Source: Streptomyces sp. L2 (lineage in GTDB: Bacteria > Actinomycetota > Actinomycetes > Streptomycetales > Streptomycetaceae). From it: a stretch of 64,000 bases of DNA. The notes under the pieces were generated by a model. That model saw only the letters and a program-made list of their open reading frames with translations, made no database searches and was not told the DNA's origin. The stretch is taken from NCBI RefSeq assembly GCF_004124325.1, contig NZ_QBDT01000001.1, positions 6,510,001-6,574,000 on the forward strand. The letters are read 5' to 3'. This document shows positions 236-8,968 of this stretch, in pieces (within the stretch, counting starts at the first letter, position 1; each line of letters starts with the position of its first letter). The translations under genes were made by a program, and so were the position numbers.

Positions 236-1039
236 TCAGCCCAGCCGGTCGGCCAGTCCCGCGGTGCAGCGGACCTCGTCGCCCGCCGTGATCAGCAGGG
301 CCTCCACGTCCGGCAGGGACTCCAGCCAGGCGAGGCCGGCTCGCGACCCCATCGCGAAGGCGGCCGTGGCCCAGCAGTCCACGAAGGTCAGGCGGGGGCC
401 CACCACGGTGACCGAGACCAGGTCCGTGACCGCCGAGCGGCCGGTGCGCGGGTCGACGATGTGGTCCCCGCGCTCCGCCGTGCCCGATGTCGCCACCGAC
501 AACTCGGCCACCCCCGCGGCCGAGATCACCGCCGCCAGCCCGCCCGGCCGGAGCGGATCGGCCACCCCGATCCGCCACGGCCGCTGCGGCTCCGGCGCAC
601 CCAGCATCTGCACATCCCCGCCGCCGTTGACGCTGACCCCGCACACCCCGTCGACCTCGGCCAGCTCCCGCGCGGCCCGCTCCGCGGACCAGCCCTTGAC
701 GATGCCGGTCGGGTCGAGCGAGCCCCGGTACCGGGTGCTGAACCAGCCCTCGCTCAGCCGCTCCGCCTCGGCCGCCAGCTCCAGCACCTCGGTGACGTCG
801 GGGGAGCAGTCGCCCAGAGCCAGTTCGCCCCGGGCGAGCCGGGACACCTCGCTGTCCGGCCGGTAGGTGCTGAACAGCGCGTCGGCCCGGTGCAGGCCCG
901 CGACCGCCTCCTGGAGCGCGGCCCGTACGGCACCGGGTTCCCCGCCGCGGACGTCGAAGGAGAAGACGGTGCCCATGACCTCCTCCGCGTGCCGCACCGC
1001 GACGGGAGTGCCGTCCGGCCCCGCCGCCGGGTCAGACAC
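236..1039 (-). CDS. apbE: ApbE-family FAD:protein FMN transferase
   Basis: Transfers FMN from FAD onto a Thr of an exported acceptor protein, making a phosphoester-linked flavin. The 267-residue product has the family signatures: VMGT at 21-24, YRPDSEVSRL near 59-68, DPTGIVKGW at 109-117, NGGGD at 138-142, TSGTAERGDH at 184-193 and a metal-site stretch DCWATA at 221-226. No clear signal peptide is seen, unlike many ApbE proteins, so it may act inside the cell or the N-terminus may be atypical. It starts with GTG inside the end of the upstream FMN-binding gene (8-nt overlap), so the two are translationally coupled. It is the last gene of the redox operon, and its substrates are most likely the two FMN-binding proteins encoded just upstream. 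Confidence 0.93.
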   Translation of the reverse strand: MSDPAAGPDGTPVAVRHAEEVMGTVFSFDVRGGEPGAVRAALQEAVAGLHRADALFSTYRPDSEVSRLARGELALGDCSPDVTEVLELAAEAERLSEGWFSTRYRGSLDPTGIVKGWSAERAARELAEVDGVCGVSVNGGGDVQMLGAPEPQRPWRIGVADPLRPGGLAAVISAAGVAELSVATSGTAERGDHIVDPRTGRSAVTDLVSVTVVGPRLTFVDCWATAAFAMGSRAGLAWLESLPDVEALLITAGDEVRCTAGLADRLG

Positions 1040-1937
1040 CGGCCTGGTCCAGCGCCGACTGCAGCGACTCCTTGTACCCGTCGCTCGTGTAGGTGGCCCC
1101 GGACACGGCGTCGATGTGCGCGGACCCCGTCGTCACCGCCTCCACGTTGAGCTTCGGCACGGCGAGCGCGGTCTTCTGGTCGCTGATCCCGCCCTTGGGC
1201 GCCTGGAGTGCCTCCGCCCTGACGATCCTGCCCCCGCTGACCGTGATCCGGACCTGCACGGTCCCGTAGTCGGTCCGCACGGCCTTCCCGGTGACGGTAC
1301 GGCCCTGCGCGGAGCCGGAACCTGAACCGGAAGCTGAGCCGGAGCCGGAGCCGGAGCCGGAACCTGAACCGGAAGCTGCACCCGAGCCGGAAGCTGCACC
1401 TGAACCCGAACCGGACTTGGCACCCGACCCTGAAGGCGACCCCGCACCGGACCCGGACGAGGCCGGCTTCACCTTGTCCAGCGCCGACTGCAGCGACTCC
1501 TTGTACCCGTCGCTCGTGTACGTCGCCCCGGACACCGCGTCGATCCGCGCGCTCTGGGCCGTCACCGCCTCCTGGTTGAGCTTCGGCACGGCGAGCGCGG
1601 TCTTCTGGTCGCTGATCCCGCCCTTGGGCGCCTGCACCGCCTCCGCCTTGGTGATCTTCCCGTCGCTGACGGTGAGCCGCACCTGCACGGTCCCGTACTG
1701 GGTCTGCGTCGCGTCCCCCGTGACCGTCCCGGTGCCGCCGGGCCGTACCCCGCCCTGGGCTCCGCCCTGCGGTGACTCCTGCCCGGCCGCCGAGCGCTGC
1801 GGGGCCCCGCCGGCCGCCGTCGCCGGGGCCGCGTTGCCCGCGGGCTTCAGCGACAGCAGCAGCACGACCCCGGACACGGTGGCGGCGCCGGCCAGCACGA
1901 CACGCCGGAGGGGGTGGCTCTTCCTCATCTCTTCCAA
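1032..1937 (-). CDS. exported FMN-binding protein with two flavinylation domains
   Basis: The 301-residue protein has an N-terminal membrane anchor or signal (basic [12 protein letters not shown], then hydrophobic 12-30) and two FMN-bind domains, about 75-157 and 218-300. Each ends in a [13 protein letters not shown] motif, with SGAT at 136-139 and 279-282. The Thr of SGAT is the residue flavinylated by ApbE in this family. The two domains are nearly identical over long stretches ([19 protein letters not shown] occurs in both), so one arose by recent internal duplication. They are joined by a Ser/Gly/Ala linker (about 160-211) encoded by short GC-rich repeats. It probably carries electrons outside the membrane, received from the oxidoreductase encoded just upstream. 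Confidence 0.92.
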
Positions 1938-1956
1938 GCTCCCGTTCGTCCGTCGC

Positions 1957-3339
1957 TCACATCTCGAACGACTCGTGATGGATGCGGCGGGCGGGAACCC
2001 CCGCGCCGCGCAGTGCCTCGTACACCGACTGCGCGAAGCCGGGCGGCCCGCACAGGAAGACGTCGTGCCGGTCGATGTCCGGGATCTTCCGCTCCAGGTT
2101 CTCCGCGGAGATGTCCGGCCGCTCGCCCTCCGGGCTGTTCACCGCGTACATCAGCCGGGCGCCCCGCTCCTCGGCGATCGCCGCCAGCTCGTCCCACAGG
2201 GCCAGGTCCTGCGTGGTGTTGGCCCGGTACAGCAGCGTGATGTCACCGGCCGCCCCGGGCAGCGTCTCGAACAGCGCCCGCATGGGCGTGATGCCGACCC
2301 CGCCCGCGACCAGCAGCACCTTGCCGCGGCTGCGGCGCTGCGCGGTCAGCGCCCCGTACGGCCCCTCCGCCCACACCCGGGTGCCCGGCTCCAGCTCCCG
2401 CAGCCGGGCGCTGTGGTCGCCGATCGCCTTCACCGTGATCCGCAGCATGTCCGGGCGGGGCGCCGCCGACAGCGAGTACGGGTGCGAGCTGAACCGCATG
2501 CCGGGGGAGAGGAACCGCCAGCGGAAGAACTGGCCCGCCTCCGCGCCCATCCGGTGCAGCCTCCGTCCGCCGATCAGCACCGACACGATGCCCGGCGTCT
2601 CCTCGACGACGGCCTCCACCCGCATCCGGTGACGCAGGTTCAGCCGGACCGGGGTGAGGATCCGGTACCACACGACCAGCGCGGTGACCGAGCCGTAGAG
2701 GCCGTACCAGAAGGTCTTCGCGACCGGGGTCAGCGCGAAGTCGTTGCCCGTGCTGATCTGGTGCCAGAACGTCAGGAACACCGCCGCGTACGTCATCAGG
2801 TGGACGTGGTACCAGCCGTCGTAGGGCAGCCGGCGGCGGACCACGCCGACCGAGGTCAGCCCGATCACCAGCAGCAGGCCCGTGCCGATCGCGGCCTTGC
2901 CCATGTCCGGCAGCTGTTCGACGGAGTCGACGGTCTGCCCGACGATGTCGCCGAGCGACTTGCCGGCCTGGAGCGCGTACCCCCACATGATGAGGAAGAC
3001 GTGCGCGAGGACCAGGCACAGGGTGTACCGGCCGCTCATCGCGTGCCAGCGGGCCACCCGGTCGGAGCCGACGCGCCGCTCCAGGGCGGGCACGCGCGCC
3101 ATCTGGAGCACGACCAGGGCCATCAGGTAGCCCGCCAGCAGGCCGGTGATCCGGCCCGCGTTGAGGATTCTCCCGTTGTCGTCGGCGATGGACGGCGTGT
3201 TCTGCCACCAGAGCCACAGCACGGCCGCCGCGCCCGCCCATACGGCGATCAGCAGCGGGACGGCCGGGGAGCGGCGTGGGCGGATGCGGCGCATCGTCTG
3301 TCGTCGGGCGGCACGTCCGCCCGCGAGCGTGGTGGTCAC
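1957..3339 (-). CDS. ferric-reductase-like transmembrane oxidoreductase with FAD/NAD(P)-binding domain (copy 1)
   Basis: About 460 residues. The N-terminal half has around six membrane helices with conserved histidines ([28 protein letters not shown]) of the ferric-reductase-like type, likely haem ligands. The C-terminal half is an FNR-type module: FAD motif [12 protein letters not shown](P) motif [11 protein letters not shown] and [10 protein letters not shown] near the end. It should move electrons from cytoplasmic NAD(P)H across the membrane. The GTG at 3339 is chosen because GGAGG lies 4 nt upstream and the protein then begins MTTTLAGG just before the first helix. An in-frame extension upstream would run into the preceding gene. 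It ends with HHESFEM, almost the same as its paralogue at 3931-5283. Confidence 0.92.
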
Positions 3340-3398
3340 GGTTCCTCCGTGGGGACTTGACCCATGGCCCACTGATACGCACCGGCCCCGCTCCGTGT

Positions 3399-3869
3399 TC
3401 AGACGCCCGCCGAGTCCAGCGCGGACTGGAGTGACTGGCGGTAACCGTCGCTGGTGTAGGTCGCCCCGGACACCGTGTCGATCCGCGCGCTCTGCGCCGC
3501 CAGCGCCTCGCGCCGCAGCTGGGGCAGGGCGTAGCTGTTGATCTCCTGGTCGCGCGGGTTGTCCTCCGGGTAGCTGACGGCCGTGACGTCGGTGAGCCGC
3601 CCGTTCGTGAGGGTCACCCGCACACGGACCGGTCCCCAGCGGGTCTGGACCGTCTCGCCGGTGGCGGTCTTCGTCCCCGAGGCGGCGGCCGGGGAGTCGT
3701 CCGCACCGGTGGCCGAACTGCTCGACGAGGAAGGCGGCTTGGCGTTCGCCGTCACCACCGTCGGTGTCGTGTGCGGCTTCAGTGACAGCAGCAGCACCAT
3801 CCCGGAGACGGTGGCCGCGCTCGCCAGCACGATGCGGCGGAAGGGACGGTTCTTGTTCAACGCGTGCAC
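3399..3869 (-). CDS. exported FMN-binding protein, single domain
   Basis: A 156-residue protein with a basic N-terminus and hydrophobic segment (11-30), a Ser-rich linker (about 40-70) and one FMN-bind domain with [10 protein letters not shown] (SGAT 134-137, Thr137 the expected flavin site). Its first 30 residues ([22 protein letters not shown]) are very close to those of the two-domain paralogue at 1032-1937, showing common origin. The GTG at 3869 has GCGAGG upstream and puts the anchor at the very N-terminus. It lies 62 bp after the end of oxidoreductase copy 2 and 59 bp before copy 1, so it is likely the electron acceptor for one of them. Confidence 0.88.
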   Translation of the reverse strand: MHALNKNRPFRRIVLASAATVSGMVLLLSLKPHTTPTVVTANAKPPSSSSSSATGADDSPAAASGTKTATGETVQTRWGPVRVRVTLTNGRLTDVTAVSYPEDNPRDQEINSYALPQLRREALAAQSARIDTVSGATYTSDGYRQSLQSALDSAGV

Positions 3870-3930
3870 AGCGGGCCTCGCACCTCTCGCAGGACACTCA
3901 TGATGAGGACGGTCATGACGCGCGGCGCCC

Positions 3931-5283
3931 TCACAGCTCGAACGACTCGTGGTGGATACGGCGGTCGGGCACCCCCGCCGCCCGCAGCGCCCCGTACACC
4001 TCCTGGGCGAAGCCGTGCGGGCCGCAGACATAGACGTCGTGGCCGGACAGCCCCGGGAAGGCCGCGCGCAGCGACTCCGCGGTGATCGGCGGGCGCTGCC
4101 CCCGCGGCCCGTTGAGCGCGTACCGCACCTGCGCGCCGCGCCAACGGGCGATCGCCTCCAGCTCACCGCCCAGCGCCAGGTCCTCCGCACCCCGCGCCCG
4201 GTACAGCAGGGTGACCTCGCCGGGCAGGGTCTCGAACAGGGCCCGCAGCGGGGTGATGCCCACCCCGGCGGCGATCAGCAGCGTGCGGTGACTCGATATC
4301 CGGTCCGCGGTGAGGGAGCCGTACGGCCCCTCCGCCCACACCCTGGTGCCGGGCCGCAGGAGCGGCACGGCCGCGCTGTGGTCGCCGAGCGCCTTGACGG
4401 TGATCCGCAGCAGGTCCGGGCGCACCGGCGCCGACAGCGAGTACGGCGTCGACGTCCAGCGCATCCCCTCCCCGAGGAACCGCCAGCGGAAGAACTGTCC
4501 CGGCCGCGCCCCCAGTTCGTCCAGGTGCCGCCCCCGCACGACGACGGAGTACACACCCGGCGCCTCCCGGTGCACCGACTCCACGCGCAGCCGGTGCCGC
4601 CGGTTCAGCCGGACCGGCGCCAGCACCCGGAACCACAGCACCAGGGCCGCGGCCCCCAGGTACAGGGCGTACCAGACGGCGGTCGCCACCGGCTCGCCGT
4701 TGAACTCGTCCCCCAGGGTCAGCTGGTGGAAGAAGGCCAGGAACACCGCCGCGTACGTCAGCAGGTGGACGTAGTACCAGAACTCGTGACGGGTGCGGCG
4801 GCGCACGGCCCGCGCCGAGGTGATGCCGACGGCGAACAGGATCAGCGTGCCGGCGGTGGCCTTGAGCATGTCCGGGTAGTCCAGGACGACGGTCACCGCC
4901 TCGTGCCACAGCGAGGCACCGTCCTGCGCGGCGTACCCGGAGAGGATCAGTGTGATGTGCGCCACGAGCAGACAGACCGTGTACCGGCCGGCCATGGCGT
5001 GCCAGCGCGCGACCCGGTCCGAGCCGATCCGGTTCTCCAGCAGCGGAGCCCGCGCCATCAGGGCGACCAGCACCGCGCACGCGTAGCCGCACAGCAGCCC
5101 GGCGATCCGGCCGGCACCGGTCAGCACGCCCGCCGTCCCCACCACGGACCCGGTGTCCGCCCACCACAGCGCGACCACGCCCGCCGCCCCCGCCCACAGC
5201 AGCGCCAGCACCGGCCCTGCCGGGGAACGCCGTACGGCCGGGGGCAGCGGCGGGGCCGCCCGCCTCGCGTCCACGGTGGTCAT
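3931..5283 (-). CDS. ferric-reductase-like transmembrane oxidoreductase with FAD/NAD(P)-binding domain (copy 2)
   Basis: 450 residues, paralogous along its whole length to the protein at 1957-3339. It has about six N-terminal helices with histidines in ARWHAMAGRY, VAHITLI, YYVHLLTY and FFHQL, then an FAD site (TPYSLSAPV), a nucleotide site (AGVGITPLRAL) and CGPHGFAQEV. It ends HHESFEL. It begins MTTVDARR, again like its paralogue. It is the first gene of a five-gene minus-strand operon (oxidoreductase, FMN protein, oxidoreductase, FMN protein, apbE) and faces a divergent two-component system across a 153-bp promoter region. Confidence 0.92.
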   Translation of the reverse strand: MTTVDARRAAPPLPPAVRRSPAGPVLALLWAGAAGVVALWWADTGSVVGTAGVLTGAGRIAGLLCGYACAVLVALMARAPLLENRIGSDRVARWHAMAGRYTVCLLVAHITLILSGYAAQDGASLWHEAVTVVLDYPDMLKATAGTLILFAVGITSARAVRRRTRHEFWYYVHLLTYAAVFLAFFHQLTLGDEFNGEPVATAVWYALYLGAAALVLWFRVLAPVRLNRRHRLRVESVHREAPGVYSVVVRGRHLDELGARPGQFFRWRFLGEGMRWTSTPYSLSAPVRPDLLRITVKALGDHSAAVPLLRPGTRVWAEGPYGSLTADRISSHRTLLIAAGVGITPLRALFETLPGEVTLLYRARGAEDLALGGELEAIARWRGAQVRYALNGPRGQRPPITAESLRAAFPGLSGHDVYVCGPHGFAQEVYGALRAAGVPDRRIHHESFEL

Positions 5284-5334
5284 CAGTCGTCGTTCCCTTC
5301 GTCCGTCGGCCCTGCCACTGTGCGGCGCGCAGCT

Positions 5335-5350
5335 CTGAGGAACCTCTCAG
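5335..5350. promoter_or_regulatory. candidate response-regulator site in divergent promoter region
   Basis: The 153-bp gap between the redox operon and the response-regulator gene contains CTGAGGAACCTCTCAG, an imperfect inverted repeat (CTGAG/CTCAG arms). About 30 bp further on is the A-rich stretch ACAACAAACTCAGAAG, which repeats ACTCAG. This is the natural place for the adjacent regulator to bind and control both directions. The assignment is inference from position and symmetry only. Confidence 0.35.
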
Positions 5351-5436
5351 CGGACCCGTCCGGAGCACATTCACAACAAACTCAGAAGGGGCCCCGGCGA
5401 CCCCCGCCACCCCGCAGGAGCGATGCTGGAGACGCG

Positions 5437-6174
5437 ATGAACACGACCCGCTCCGGCCGCCCGGCCCTCACCCGACCCGACGGCACCCCGCTCCGCGTCC
5501 TCGTCGTCGACGACGACCCCGACCTCGCCGAGGTGCTCACCGGGGCCCTGCGCTACGAGGGCTGGGAGGTGCGCGGGGCCGGCGACGGCGTCTCGGCGGT
5601 CGCCACCGCGCGCGAGCTGCTGCCCGACGCCGTCGTCCTGGACGTGATGCTCCCCGACACCGACGGCTTCACCGTGCTGCGCCGGCTGCACGAGGTGCGG
5701 CCCGGCGTCTGTGTGCTCTTCCTCACCGCCCGGGACGCGGTCGAGGACCGCATCGCCGGCATCACCGCGGGCGGCGACGACTACGTCACCAAACCCTTCA
5801 GCTTGGAGGAGGTCGTCGCCCGGCTGCGCGGCCTCCTGCGCCGCGCCGGCATGGCCCGCCAGGCGGAGGAGGGGCCGCGGCTGGCCGTCGGCGACCTGGT
5901 CATGGACGAGGAGGCCCGCGAGGTGACCCGCTCCGGCGAGCTGATCGAACTCTCCCCGACCGAGTTCGAACTCCTGCGCTTCCTCATGCGCAACCCCCGC
6001 CGTGTCCTGAGCAAGGCCCAGATCCTCGACCGCGTCTGGTCGTACGACTTCGGCGGCCGGGCCCATGTCGTCGAGCTGTACATCTCCTACCTGCGCAAGA
6101 AGGTCGACGCCGGCCGCGAACCCATGATCCACACGGTGCGCGGCGCCGGCTACGTCCTGAAGCCGGCGGCCTGA
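5437..6174 (+). CDS. OmpR/PhoB-family response regulator
   Basis: 245 residues. The receiver domain (about 19-135) has the acidic pocket VVDDDPD (24-30), phospho-acceptor Asp69 in VVLDVMLPDTDG, and TKPF. The winged-helix DNA-binding domain (about 150-243) has LSPTEFELLRFLM, RVLSKAQILDRVW and HTVRGAGYVLKP. ATG at 5437 has GGAG upstream; a nearby ATG at 5423 is out of frame. It overlaps the kinase gene by one base (TGATG), so both are coupled. It is divergent from the flavin redox operon, which it may regulate. Confidence 0.95.
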   Translation: MNTTRSGRPALTRPDGTPLRVLVVDDDPDLAEVLTGALRYEGWEVRGAGDGVSAVATARELLPDAVVLDVMLPDTDGFTVLRRLHEVRPGVCVLFLTARDAVEDRIAGITAGGDDYVTKPFSLEEVVARLRGLLRRAGMARQAEEGPRLAVGDLVMDEEAREVTRSGELIELSPTEFELLRFLMRNPRRVLSKAQILDRVWSYDFGGRAHVVELYISYLRKKVDAGREPMIHTVRGAGYVLKPAA

Positions 6175-7649
6175 TGCGCTCCGTACGGCACCTGCCCCGC
6201 CCCCGCACCCTGCGCGCCCGCCTCACCTTCGGCCTGGTGGTGCTGCTCGCCGTGAGCTGCGCCGCCGTCGGCCTGGCCGCGGTCGTGGAGCTGAACGGCT
6301 TTCTCACCCAGCGCCTCGACGAACAGCTCGTCCAGGTCGGCACCCGGTTCCCGGAGAGCCTGGAACACCAGGGCCTGGTCCCGGACGACCACGACGGCGA
6401 CGAGTACGGCGACACCCGCCGCCAGGCCACCGGCACCTTCGGCGCACGCCTGGTGCACGGCGTCATCACCAACAAGGGCCTGATCCGCTCCGGCGACCCG
6501 TCCGCCGACCTCGGCGTGAACCTCACGGCCACCGACCGCGCGCGCCTCGCCGCCCTGCCCGCCGACAGCAGACCGCACACGGTCGAACTGTCCGCCCTCC
6601 ACGACTACCGGGTCCTCGCCCGCCCCGGCCGCGACGGGGACGTCCTGATCGTCGGCCTCCCCCTGGAGTCCGTGCAGGCCGCCGTCCACCGGCTGGAACT
6701 GGTGGCCGGGATCGTCTTCGGCCTCGCCCTGGTGGTGGCCGGCGTGGCCGGTGCCGGCTGGGTCCGCTGGTCGCTGCGCCCGCTGAGCCGGGTCGCGGCC
6801 ACCGCCACCCGGGTCAGTGAACTCCCGCTCGCCAGTGGGGAGGTCGCGCTGCCCGCGCGGGTGCCCGAGTCCGACCCGCACGGTGAGGTGGGCCGGGTGG
6901 CCGCCGCCGTCAACCGCATGCTCGGCCACGTCGAGGACGCCCTGACCAAGCGGCACGCGAGCGAGGAGCGGCTGCGCCGGTTCGCGGCCGACGCCAGCCA
7001 CGAGCTGCGCACCCCGGTCGCGTCGGTGCGCGGCCACGCCGAGCTGGCGTTGCTGCATCCGGGGCCGGTGCCGCCGGAGGTCACGCGGGCGCTGGAGCGG
7101 ATCACGGCCGAGTCGGCCCGGATGGGGGAGATGGTCGACGACCTGCTCCTGCTGGCCCGCCTGGACGCCGGCCGCCCGCTGGAGTCCCTGCCGGTCGACC
7201 TCACCCGCCTGGTGCTGGACGCGGTCACGGACGCGCGTGCGGCGGGCCCCGGGCACGGCTGGACCCTGGACCTCCCCGAGGAACCGGTCACGGTCACCGG
7301 CGACGCCCACCGCCTGCACCAGGTGTTGGCCAACCTGTTGGCCAACGCCCGTTTGCACACACCCGTGGGCACCAAGGTGACGGTGACCCTGGACTCCGGC
7401 CCGGAGGGGGCCCGCCTCGTCGTGCACGACGACGGTCCCGGCGTCCCGGAGGACATCCGGCCCCACGTCTTCGAACGCTTCACCCGCGCGGAACACCGCC
7501 GCCGCCCCCACGCCCCGGGCGGCGGAGCGGGCCTGGGCCTGTCGATCGTGGCGGCGGTGGCGGAGGCGCACGGGGGGAGCGTGGAGCTGGAGAGCAGCCC
7601 GGGCGCGACGACGTTCACCGTTGAACTTCCGACCAGTGAACCCACGTAG
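6174..7649 (+). CDS. two-component sensor histidine kinase
   Basis: 491 residues. There are two membrane helices (about 17-40 and 174-198) around a 130-residue extracytoplasmic sensor region of no recognised family. HAMP follows (about 199-260), then HisKA with His276 in ASHELRTPVASVRG, and an HATPase with N box NLLANARLH, DDGPGVPED and GAGLGLSIV. It is the partner of the response regulator with which it overlaps. The extracellular sensor and the neighbouring exported flavoproteins suggest an envelope or redox signal, which is inference. A copy of the dispersed repeat begins at its stop codon. Confidence 0.95.
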   Translation: MRSVRHLPRPRTLRARLTFGLVVLLAVSCAAVGLAAVVELNGFLTQRLDEQLVQVGTRFPESLEHQGLVPDDHDGDEYGDTRRQATGTFGARLVHGVITNKGLIRSGDPSADLGVNLTATDRARLAALPADSRPHTVELSALHDYRVLARPGRDGDVLIVGLPLESVQAAVHRLELVAGIVFGLALVVAGVAGAGWVRWSLRPLSRVAATATRVSELPLASGEVALPARVPESDPHGEVGRVAAAVNRMLGHVEDALTKRHASEERLRRFAADASHELRTPVASVRGHAELALLHPGPVPPEVTRALERITAESARMGEMVDDLLLLARLDAGRPLESLPVDLTRLVLDAVTDARAAGPGHGWTLDLPEEPVTVTGDAHRLHQVLANLLANARLHTPVGTKVTVTLDSGPEGARLVVHDDGPGVPEDIRPHVFERFTRAEHRRRPHAPGGGAGLGLSIVAAVAEAHGGSVELESSPGATTFTVELPTSEPT

Positions 7650-7667
7650 GGGCGCGGGGAACCGCGC
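7649..7667. repeat. dispersed intergenic repeat, short copy
   Basis: The sequence GGGGCGCGGGGAACCGCGC overlaps the kinase stop codon. It is a shortened, slightly changed copy of the element also found near 10341, 11865, 15179, 18615, 33991, 34063 and 52207. Here it sits between convergent genes and could form part of a terminator. Confidence 0.6.
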
Positions 7668-7675
7668 ACAGAGGC

Positions 7676-8377
7676 TCAGTACCGGGTGACCGCCGTAGCC
7701 CCGCCGGCCGTCCCGACGGCGATGTGCGGCTCCTTGGAAGGTTCGGCCCACTGGACAATCCGCCGCATGTCGGAATAGGGCACCGACACACACCCCGCCG
7801 TCGCCCCCCGCCCGTTGACGTGCAGAAAGATCCCGGCCCCCCGCCCCCGCACGGGCCGCTGGTAGTTGAACCCGATGGCGAGCCCGTACGAGTACTGCGG
7901 CCGGTAGGACACCAGGTGCTCGGACTCGGCGCCCCGGCAGTCCGACGGCAGCGGATCGACCCAGCGGTTGTAGGCGCGGGACGCGGTGTCCTCGCACCAC
8001 CACGAACTCTCCAGCACCGGCCGGTACTCGACGGTCGTACCGCTCGGCGGCGCCTCGATGCCGAAGCCGAACGGAATGTCGTAGAGCCCGGTCGGTGTGG
8101 TGTTCGTGCCCTGCTTGCGTGACGTGCCCTCGACCAGCCCGTTGGCCCCGAACCGCGCCGGTGCCGATCCGGCGCGTACCCACCGGCCGTCACGCAGGTC
8201 CCACCAGCTGACCGTGCCGGACGTCGAGTCGGTTCGCGGGGCCTGGGCGACGATCAGCTGGGTTCCGCCCCCGGTGTTCGCCAGCCGCTCCGGCAGTGGC
8301 GGTTCCGCCCCCGGCGCCGCACCGAGCAGGCAGGCGACGGACGCGGAGACGAGGGCGAGGGCGAGACCGGGGCGCAT
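7676..8377 (-). CDS. secreted L,D-transpeptidase (YkuD domain)
   Basis: 233 residues with an N-terminal signal sequence (hydrophobic 4-22). The catalytic region reads HVNGRGATAGCVSVP, with His186 and Cys196, matching the H-x-x-G-x(6)-GC signature of YkuD enzymes that make 3-3 peptidoglycan cross-links or attach proteins. Upstream TPTGLYDIPFGFG fits the substrate-binding part of the fold. Two further cysteines (C128, C147) may form a disulphide. It follows the flavoprotein gene at 8381-8968 by 3 nt, so the two share a transcript. It would act in the cell wall. Confidence 0.88.
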   Translation of the reverse strand: MRPGLALALVSASVACLLGAAPGAEPPLPERLANTGGGTQLIVAQAPRTDSTSGTVSWWDLRDGRWVRAGSAPARFGANGLVEGTSRKQGTNTTPTGLYDIPFGFGIEAPPSGTTVEYRPVLESSWWCEDTASRAYNRWVDPLPSDCRGAESEHLVSYRPQYSYGLAIGFNYQRPVRGRGAGIFLHVNGRGATAGCVSVPYSDMRRIVQWAEPSKEPHIAVGTAGGATAVTRY

Positions 8378-8380
8378 GGC

Positions 8381-8968
8381 TCAGACGCTAGAGGGCGGCA
8401 GGGGGAGCGGCAGCCCGGGTAGGCCATCCAGGCTCGTCGCGACGTGCTCCTTCTTCTCGAAGTAGGCGTTCAGCGATGCGTCGTCCTCCCGCGCGAACCG
8501 CTTCCCGTGCAGATCGCGGTCCTCCTCGTACGCCATGAAGGGCAGGGTGTAGCCACACGTGTCCCGCACCAGGCCGGCGTGCACCACGATGACCGCGCGC
8601 AGCCCGTGCGTGCCGGCGTCGATGCCGGGGAAATGACTCAGCAGCTCCGGGAAGCGCGGGTCGTCGCGGAAGACCGGCTCTCCCCGGCCGTGCACGCGCA
8701 CGATGTTCGGCGGCCCCTGGAAGGCGCACCACATGAGGGTGATCCGCCCGTTCTCCCGCAGGTGCGCGATCGTCTCGGCGTTGGAGCCGGCGAAGTCGAG
8801 GTAGGCGACGGTGAGTTCGTCGAGGACGGCGAAGGAGCCCTTGAGGCCCTTGGGCGAGAGGTTGACCGTGCCGTCGCCGGACAGCGGTGCGGTGGCTGTG
8901 AAGAAGAGGGGCTGCTCCTCGATGAAGGTCCGGAGCCTGCCGTCTATGCGCTCATAGGTCTTTCCCAT
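8381..8968 (-). CDS. pyridoxamine 5'-phosphate oxidase-like flavoprotein
   Basis: A 195-residue protein of the PNPOx-like split-barrel type. It begins with the typical segment ERIDGRLRTFIEEQPLFFTATAP, followed by NLSPKG and then ITLMWCAFQGPPNIVRVHGRGEPV, features of FMN/F420-binding members. The substrate is not predictable. The ATG at 8968 has no Shine-Dalgarno sequence. A strong promoter (TAGACA, 17 bp, GATAAT) ends 8 nt before it, so the mRNA is probably leaderless. It is followed after 3 nt by the L,D-transpeptidase gene. Confidence 0.85.
   Translation of the reverse strand: MGKTYERIDGRLRTFIEEQPLFFTATAPLSGDGTVNLSPKGLKGSFAVLDELTVAYLDFAGSNAETIAHLRENGRITLMWCAFQGPPNIVRVHGRGEPVFRDDPRFPELLSHFPGIDAGTHGLRAVIVVHAGLVRDTCGYTLPFMAYEEDRDLHGKRFAREDDASLNAYFEKKEHVATSLDGLPGLPLPLPPSSV

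Follow-up and report, generated by a model that had tools for sequence, protein, structure and literature searches.

A compact locus of seven genes fills positions 236-7649 of the 64,000-nucleotide stretch of Streptomyces sp. L2 DNA analysed here (contig NZ_QBDT01000001.1, positions 6,510,001 to 6,574,000; hereafter the window). On the minus strand lie, in order of transcription, a transmembrane oxidoreductase (FRE1), a carrier with one flavin mononucleotide (FMN)-binding domain, a second oxidoreductase (FRE2), a carrier with two such domains, and apbE, the gene for the transferase that attaches FMN to protein; a response regulator and a sensor kinase diverge from them on the plus strand. Judged against its relatives, the locus looks to be built from two separately evolved modules, A (the two-component system, FRE1 and its carrier) and B (FRE2, its carrier and apbE), which share the one apbE and are each found elsewhere without the other. 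Its features are as follows.

236..1039, minus strand: apbE, FAD:protein FMN transferase (P0001); Pfam PF02424, 2.7e-44; the sole ApbE found in the genome, no export leader
1032..1937, minus strand: module B carrier, two FMN_bind domains (P0002); exported-type N-terminus with RRVVL; likely start ATG 1928
1476..1694, minus strand: first FMN_bind domain of P0002, with SGAT Thr139 (TTG-start numbering)
1047..1265, minus strand: second FMN_bind domain of P0002, with SGAT Thr282 (TTG-start numbering)
1310..1415, minus strand: 6-bp/42-bp repeat encoding the Gly/Ser/Ala linker between both FMN domains of the module B carrier (found with TRF)
1957..3339, minus strand: FRE2 (P0003; Pfam), the NAD(P)H/haem transmembrane oxidoreductase of module B; predicted haem ligands His99, 113, 180, 193
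3372..3377, minus strand: predicted module B promoter, -10 element TATCAG; fixed 18-bp spacing pattern in 95/108 loci
3396..3401, minus strand: predicted module B promoter, -35 element TGAACA, which overlaps the module A carrier stop codon; same conserved pattern, TGAAC[AG]-N18-TA[TC]C
3399..3869, minus strand: module A carrier, one FMN_bind domain (P0004; Pfam); SGAT Thr137; exported-type N-terminus with RRIVL
3931..5283, minus strand: FRE1 (P0005; Pfam), the NAD(P)H/haem transmembrane oxidoreductase of module A; predicted haem ligands His95, 109, 173, 186
5317..5322, minus strand: CACAGT hexamer, possible FRE1 -10, conserved in an alignment of 50 divergent regions
5334..5350, plus strand: predicted operator site 2, 11-bp direct repeat TCTGAG-N5-TCTCAG (motif scan, conservation)
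5370..5386, minus strand: predicted operator site 1 (faces site 2), an 11-bp direct repeat with sequence TCTGAG-N5-TGTGAA (motif scan, conservation)
5437..6174, plus strand: OmpR/PhoB-family response regulator (P0006); Pfam Response_reg and Trans_reg_C
6174..7649, plus strand: sensor histidine kinase (P0007); Pfam HAMP/HisKA/HATPase_c; predicted PAS/PDC-like extracytoplasmic domain with an acidic loop (model)

A first-pass annotation made from the letters of the sequence had placed two oxidoreductases, one- and two-domain FMN carriers, apbE and a divergent kinase/regulator pair here; all seven open reading frames (ORFs) lie where it put them and have Pfam support. Ferric_reduct (PF01794; 6e-19 and 2.9e-16) and NAD_binding_1 (PF00175; 6.4e-11 and 3.9e-07) are present in both oxidoreductases, which are 60% identical to one another, while FMN_bind is matched by two stretches of P0002 and one of P0004. 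The minus-strand genes are separated by 61, 59 and 19 bases (the last counted from the TTG start of the two-domain carrier), and finally by an overlap of 8 bases between the start of apbE and the stop of the two-domain carrier gene. The conserved start of related carriers, M-[RK]-K-[SN]-[HR]-P, favours ATG 1928 over TTG 1937 and suggests that the two-domain carrier begins there; the SGAT threonines first numbered Thr137, Thr139 and Thr282 are correct as counted, and the ATG start would make those of the two-domain carrier Thr136 and Thr279. In searches of the 8.07 Mb genome, FMN_bind (three domains) and ApbE were matched only at this locus, as were FREs of this family at E 1e-40, in agreement with the early proposal that one transferase serves both branches.

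To place the locus among its relatives we drew on two collections: 87 places from genomes of the same genus, in which, among the matches listed, FRE loci were typed in 55 genomes besides the window's own (five genomes with one unlisted match each being left out, and weaker places possibly missing), and 80 named loci from an ApbE query (the best 80 of 395 relatives). FMN_bind occurs in 61 of the 121 sampled genomes of the genus, that of the window included. Loci were typed by score as A (FRE1), B (FRE2), C, D or E, and counts not described as distinct include species found in both collections. The 108 distinct FRE2 sequences divide into 47 from loci carrying both A and B (the window among them) and 61 from loci with B only, and FRE2 lies upstream of a carrier in every one. 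The A+B arrangement is beyond chance, being shared by 47 loci with distinct FRE2 sequences. Within the 80 named loci, module A and the regulator occur together in 35 and are both missing from 43 B-only loci, the other 2 having no FRE in the stretch examined. All 13 D loci comprise regulator, kinase, FRE, one-domain carrier and apbE. More broadly, members of the FRE family turned up in 121 of the 296 genomes sampled across the class and in 58 of its 114 sampled genera (Streptomyces being counted among them), and the same divergent regulator and kinase stand beside FRE, carrier and apbE in four loci from other genera (L240, L241, L242, L251). Four solo A loci (L070, L093, L112, L270) have no neighbouring apbE; in all five genomes comprising these and L118, described below, apbE is present somewhere. 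Two observations stand apart from this scheme. Locus L254, from another family of the class, is a second kind of two-module locus, in which one kinase/regulator pair is flanked by two FRE-FMN-ApbE modules that both have an apbE; and two Streptomyces genomes (G091, G110) hold further ApbE copies away from the listed FMN_bind places (L323, L324, L329).

A phylogeny of 103 FRE sequences, built by a quick method, places A, B and C each on one side of a branch. FRE2 (B) joins type E with a Shimodaira-Hasegawa-like approximate likelihood ratio test (SH-aLRT) value of 99, and FRE1 (A) stays apart. One locus typed D by score (L071) falls near A and B. The first-pass description of a duplicated operon is not supported by this result: FRE2 groups with type E and not with FRE1, each module occurs without the other, and we set aside tandem-duplicate status for the pair because the copies are not nearest relatives in this tree. 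That annotation had also named homologues with unlinked and differently distributed genes as telling against its reading, and these exist in part, 61 of the 108 distinct B loci having no adjacent A and the four solo A loci no neighbouring apbE. Types B and E occupy one chromosomal place. Its markers are PPOX-type and YkuD genes, joined in the compared loci by neighbours that we read from their sequences as arg genes. In the window, the YkuD L,D-transpeptidase and PPOX-type flavoprotein genes lie at 7676-8968; they flank most B and A+B loci and are probably fixed chromosomal neighbours, not partners.

Module A appears to have travelled with module B: FRE1 and FRE2 distances correlate over 47 AB loci (Mantel r 0.655, with 0 of 2000 permutations as high), a correlation that indicates co-inheritance. 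On the FRE2 tree the label switches between A+B and B 15 times, at least 7 of these on well-supported branches. The direction of change is given by the B-only loci, which keep remnants of the A carrier: a decayed 3' end lies ahead of FRE2 in the expected register, which ranks first among 38 in 22 of 53 loci and reaches p<0.05 against shuffles in 27 of the 53, these being the testable loci after 8 of 61 that could not be anchored were left out. Short translated remnants can be read in L172 and L194. L118 presents the reverse loss, retaining the PPOX gene, kinase, regulator, FRE1, its carrier and a B-clade ApbE without FRE2 and its carrier. It thus looks, on these comparisons, as though A+B is the ancestral state and A has been lost repeatedly. 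Three points weigh on the other side: type E does not fall on one side of a branch in the quick tree; about half of the testable B-only loci have no clear A remnant, so that their history rests on the tree; and the remnant-bearing loci are related to one another, so that the counts are not of independent events.

The two modules are also distinguished by their control elements. Between the regulator and FRE1 lie two facing 11-bp direct repeats, TCTGAG-N5-TCTGAG. With the sites counted as separate and non-overlapping, 48 of the 50 distinct A-type gaps hold both at two mismatches or fewer, and all 50 do so at three or fewer (54 loci having been reduced to 50 by dropping identical or out-of-range gaps); shuffled sequences reach these counts in 0 and 2 of 1000 trials respectively. 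A matrix of the operator scores above 12 in 51/51 A+B, 4/4 A and 13/13 D loci, and in 6/66 B (best 16.4), 0/4 E and 5/27 C loci, the A+B and B counts containing duplicates between the two collections. The best match falls inside the regulator-FRE gap in 13/13 D loci, as it does in L240 (weakly), L241, L242 and L251. In the window, a scan of the 64 kb passes its threshold of 9 only at 5370-5386 and 5334-5350. The adjacent genes encode a receiver and winged-helix regulator and a HAMP-HisKA-HATPase kinase (Pfam), and most likely, as judged from the arrangement, this divergent two-component system controls the module A promoter through the paired operators. Against a broader role, the rest of the genome shows no clear enrichment of the operator (28 matches, versus 19 with the reversed pattern), which leaves a wider regulon unsupported. 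A genomic site scoring like those of the window does lie upstream of one ORF, which we take to be spermidine-synthase-like (L277:4336-4354; G000:C1:2304336); it could be a target in trans or chance.

Upstream of FRE2, the pattern TGAAC[AG]-N18-TA[TC]C occurs in 95 of 108 loci (42/47 A+B, 53/61 B), always with a spacing of 18 where it was found, although 14-21 was allowed; the remaining 13 regions, read by eye, differ in letters. In A+B loci the -35 overlaps the stop codon of the A carrier. Because these elements are conserved, we predict that module A is regulated and that module B has a promoter of its own. A search of titles and abstracts found no paper on the box CTCTGAG-N4-CTCTGAG, and both the operator and the promoter element, absent from the literature searched, look to be new. 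The stretch between the FRE2 -10 and the start codon (window 3339-3371; A+B consensus GGGCCAAGGGTCAAGTCCCCACGGAGG) is conserved nearly as well as the promoter element in both A+B and B loci, and translational control is a possible function. The operator, the module B promoter and the leaderless ApbE described below had all escaped the first-pass annotation.

The extracytoplasmic part of the kinase was modelled with moderate confidence (predicted local distance difference test 77, predicted template modelling score 0.55) as a long first helix followed by two strands, a helix and three strands, with a disordered acidic loop at residues 67-77. It resembles PAS/PDC-type sensor domains at modest Z, and the best NCBIfam model of the whole kinase, 'heavy metal sensor histidine kinase', scores below its cut-off.

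The route first proposed for the electrons, from NAD(P)H through haem to covalent FMN, is supported by conservation. Four histidines are invariant in all 203 FREs of groups A, B, C, D and E (51, 108, 27, 13 and 4 sequences), and again in a 70-sequence set from several genera; we infer that they could hold two haems across the membrane. The flavin sites of the two branches are built differently, as the same annotation had supposed. Here the best guide is SaFMN3 of Streptomyces azureus, which has been purified, carries covalent FMN on threonine and has one domain crystallised; its three flavins share one potential, -184 mV, and residue 14 stacks on the flavin while residue 42 hydrogen-bonds N5, according to the available part of that report (Tong 2023, PMC10339131). 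In SaFMN3 numbering, residue 14 is Trp in 53/55 A carriers and Tyr in 250/250 B domains, and residue 42 is Asp in 53/55 A carriers and Ser in 248/251 B domains (gaps left out, duplicates retained in the A rows). These pockets support different potentials, and the A and B carriers should differ in this respect. Both window carriers find their best PDB match in the SaFMN3 domain (8p2a; E 5.7e-34 for P0002). This domain is identical to the two P0002 domains at 67/87 and 61/87 positions, and its identity to the second domain of a three-domain B carrier at L044 reaches 98.9%. SaFMN3 is therefore most likely, from these identities, a module-B carrier. Like it, the two-domain carrier of the window has at least two FMN_bind domains, each with an [ST]GAT threonine. 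Since FRE2 lies upstream of the carrier in all the distinct B loci, FRE2 is the likely electron donor of SaFMN3, a donor that the available part of the report calls unknown (PMC10339131). The early statement that such genes had no assigned role in Streptomyces holds for physiology within the literature searched, but what is most likely a module-B carrier had already been purified and shown to be flavinylated.

B carriers have from 1 to 5 domains. Near-identical middle copies in L148 and L169 indicate recent in-frame expansion, and the linker repeat at 1310-1415 is a likely substrate for such changes by slippage or recombination. In L124, L130 and L154 one FMN domain of the B carrier is in frame with ApbE and another lies in a different frame; these frame changes in the linker may be sequencing indels in GC-rich repeats. 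L113, with split FMN ORFs and no ApbE called, is possibly the same case.

Where flavin is attached to these exported-type carriers is suggested by the transferase itself. In the window ApbE, 21 residues precede the first conserved motif (MGT), which leaves no room for a leader. No hydrophobic leader was found in any of 176 ApbE ORFs with the motif, the window's included, taking a hydrophobic 16-mer above 1.8 within 70 residues upstream of the motif, stop to stop, as the measure. These ORFs came from 51 A+B, 65 B, 16 D, 23 C, 4 E and 1 A loci and 16 from other genera, with species in both collections counted twice and two ORFs having no motif; the distinct set (L035-L201 plus the window) comprises 45 A+B, 59 B, 13 D, 24 C, 3 E and 1 A. 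Applied to 20 control ApbEs from other genomes or other copies, this measure was positive for 8. In both window carriers RRx-hydrophobic-L precedes the hydrophobic segment, and across A/B carriers the N-terminus reads M-[RK]-K-[SN]-[HR]-P-[LIV]-R-R-x-V-L-A, then the membrane segment. RRxVL fits the consensus of twin-arginine translocation (Tat) signals. In 73 distinct A/B-type N-termini, gathered by a pattern built for such anchors, RR is present in 73/73 and Leu at +4 in 72, with R42/K23/N8 at position -6; among distinct segments RR occurs in 83/83 from A+B, 37/37 from B and 5/5 from A loci. RR is absent from the examined carrier in the 8 leader-positive control genomes and from all 25 carriers in 26 such places. 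On this hint we propose that a leaderless ApbE flavinylates the carriers in the cytosol and that Tat then exports them as folded holo-proteins.

Several results pull against this proposal. Several of the 12 controls that scored negative seem to be misframed, and the control ApbEs and those of the class form phylogenetic blocks, not independent tests. RR is present in 4/5 E and 15/17 D carriers, two D carriers having RK, while one E carrier and one carrier without FRE (RR 0/1) show RH or RN; it is found in 9/21 of the more distant loci from other genera (type X), and in 0/26 distinct type C carriers, whose ApbE is nonetheless leaderless. Tat is thus not the rule for the whole class, and the type C loci argue that another route also exists. 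These RR-less C and X carriers with leaderless ApbE also favour a different explanation, in which ApbE leaves the cell by a route invisible in its sequence (non-classical, or piggy-back with the carrier), flavinylation takes place outside, as it does in other bacteria, and RR is only a topogenic charge cluster in an anchor that contacts FRE. The anchor is indeed conserved as a whole and not at RR alone (K at -5 in 70/73, P at -2 in 73/73). However, all 176 ApbE ORFs are without a leader, and RR never varies in the A/B anchors while R, K and N all occur at position -6, in a motif that fits Tat; we regard external flavinylation as possible but less likely. Extended to types A, B, D and E in Streptomyces and its relatives, cytosolic flavinylation would mean that carriers are exported by Tat already loaded with FMN and that no FAD is secreted, with domain copy number (1 to 5) and the presence of a sensor-controlled second module tuned by recurrent domain expansion and module loss; this wider claim is plausible but tentative, somewhat less than evenly balanced.

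The acceptor of the electrons admits two further explanations. The system might be a bacterial NADPH oxidase, passing electrons to O2 for surface peroxide or superoxide or for oxygen scavenging. O2 reactivity is common among free reduced flavoproteins, and covalent carriers would be needless if the haem itself reduced O2, yet FRE1 and FRE2 match PDB chains 8qt6/8qq7/8qta, which we take to be Streptococcus NOX. Reduced SaFMN3 is moreover reoxidised by O2 in vitro at 1.2 per s, as given in the available part of the report (PMC10339131); overall we consider an oxidase possible but doubtful. Still less probable is an assimilatory iron reductase whose carriers would reduce ferric iron or ferric siderophores for uptake. 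VIT1 accompanies 153 'MsrQ-like' clusters in the accessible part of a survey (PMC8238504), and the two VIT1 genes elsewhere in this genome make an iron role possible, as does the below-threshold heavy-metal model of the kinase; these VIT1 genes, however, lie about 278 and 506 kb from the locus, and a Pfam scan of nine proteins at 236-8968 found no transporter. A simple recent tandem duplication of one module, for which the common gene order and the 60% identity of FRE1 and FRE2 might speak, is highly improbable, the tree grouping B with E and A apart, and A sharing its operator and kinase type with D.

We favour, as a moderately probable model, a composite of two old, separable electron-export modules, with A under two-component control, B on a separate promoter, attachment of flavin in the cytosol and subsequent export by Tat. 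Module B (FRE2, two-FMN carrier, apbE) would be transcribed from its own promoter, and module A (FRE1, one-FMN carrier) from the promoter with paired operators under the divergent two-component system. In each, NAD(P)H, the presumed donor, would reduce a FAD domain, and electrons would cross the membrane over two haems held by the four histidines to reach covalent FMN on membrane-tethered carriers outside, whose potentials should differ with the Trp/Asp (A) and Tyr/Ser (B) pockets. The single ApbE would flavinylate all carriers in the cytosol, where FAD is, and the folded holo-carriers would presumably leave by Tat through the RRxVL signal. First candidates for the final acceptor are an extracellular metal and O2, with which reduced SaFMN3 reacts in vitro. 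Gene content, phylogeny, conservation of operator and promoter, A remnants, the absent leader and the pocket residues are the parts of this model read directly from sequence.

If cytosolic flavinylation and Tat export are correct, monoderm actinobacteria would load extracellular flavoproteins without exporting FAD or ApbE, and such inside-first loading is not covered by the picture of ApbE in the available part of PMC12052999. SaFMN3 gains in FRE2 a candidate for the donor reported as unknown (PMC10339131, as available). A broad class label thereby becomes a testable system, with a defined predicted operator and regulator and two carriers predicted to differ in potential, and strains carrying both modules, or either of them alone, exist in nature for comparison.

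PhoB/OmpR-type regulators use 11-bp direct-repeat boxes; the window regulator belongs to their family and the locus has 11-bp head-to-tail repeats, with a different box sequence, CTCTGAG-N4-CTCTGAG. NqrC-type and other carriers served by exported ApbE bear covalent FMN, attached by ApbE, on the threonine of [ST]GAT, as is predicted for those of the locus. Most ApbEs seem to be secreted, those of Salmonella and Vibrio having a signal peptide and lipid anchor, whereas the window ApbE has neither; the cytosolic ApbE of Klebsiella pneumoniae has no signal peptide, as here, but serves a soluble cytosolic fumarate reductase and not exported carriers (PMC12052999, available part). SaFMN3 has three domains against two in the window's B carrier, which has an adjacent candidate donor in FRE2. 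The closest described systems are the 1797 'MsrQ-like' flavinylation clusters of 1468 genomes, which are widespread in Actinobacteria and of which 1437 have an NAD-binding domain (Meheust 2021, PMC8238504, available part). The locus agrees with these in its PF01794 proteins with two predicted haem-binding His pairs and C-terminal PF00175, its apbE and its FMN_bind genes, carrier export being judged from the hydrophobic N-terminal segment only. It departs from the clusters, as described in that part of the source, in having two non-sister modules on one apbE, a kinase/regulator pair with an operator, and a leaderless ApbE, and is thus a known class in a new composite form.

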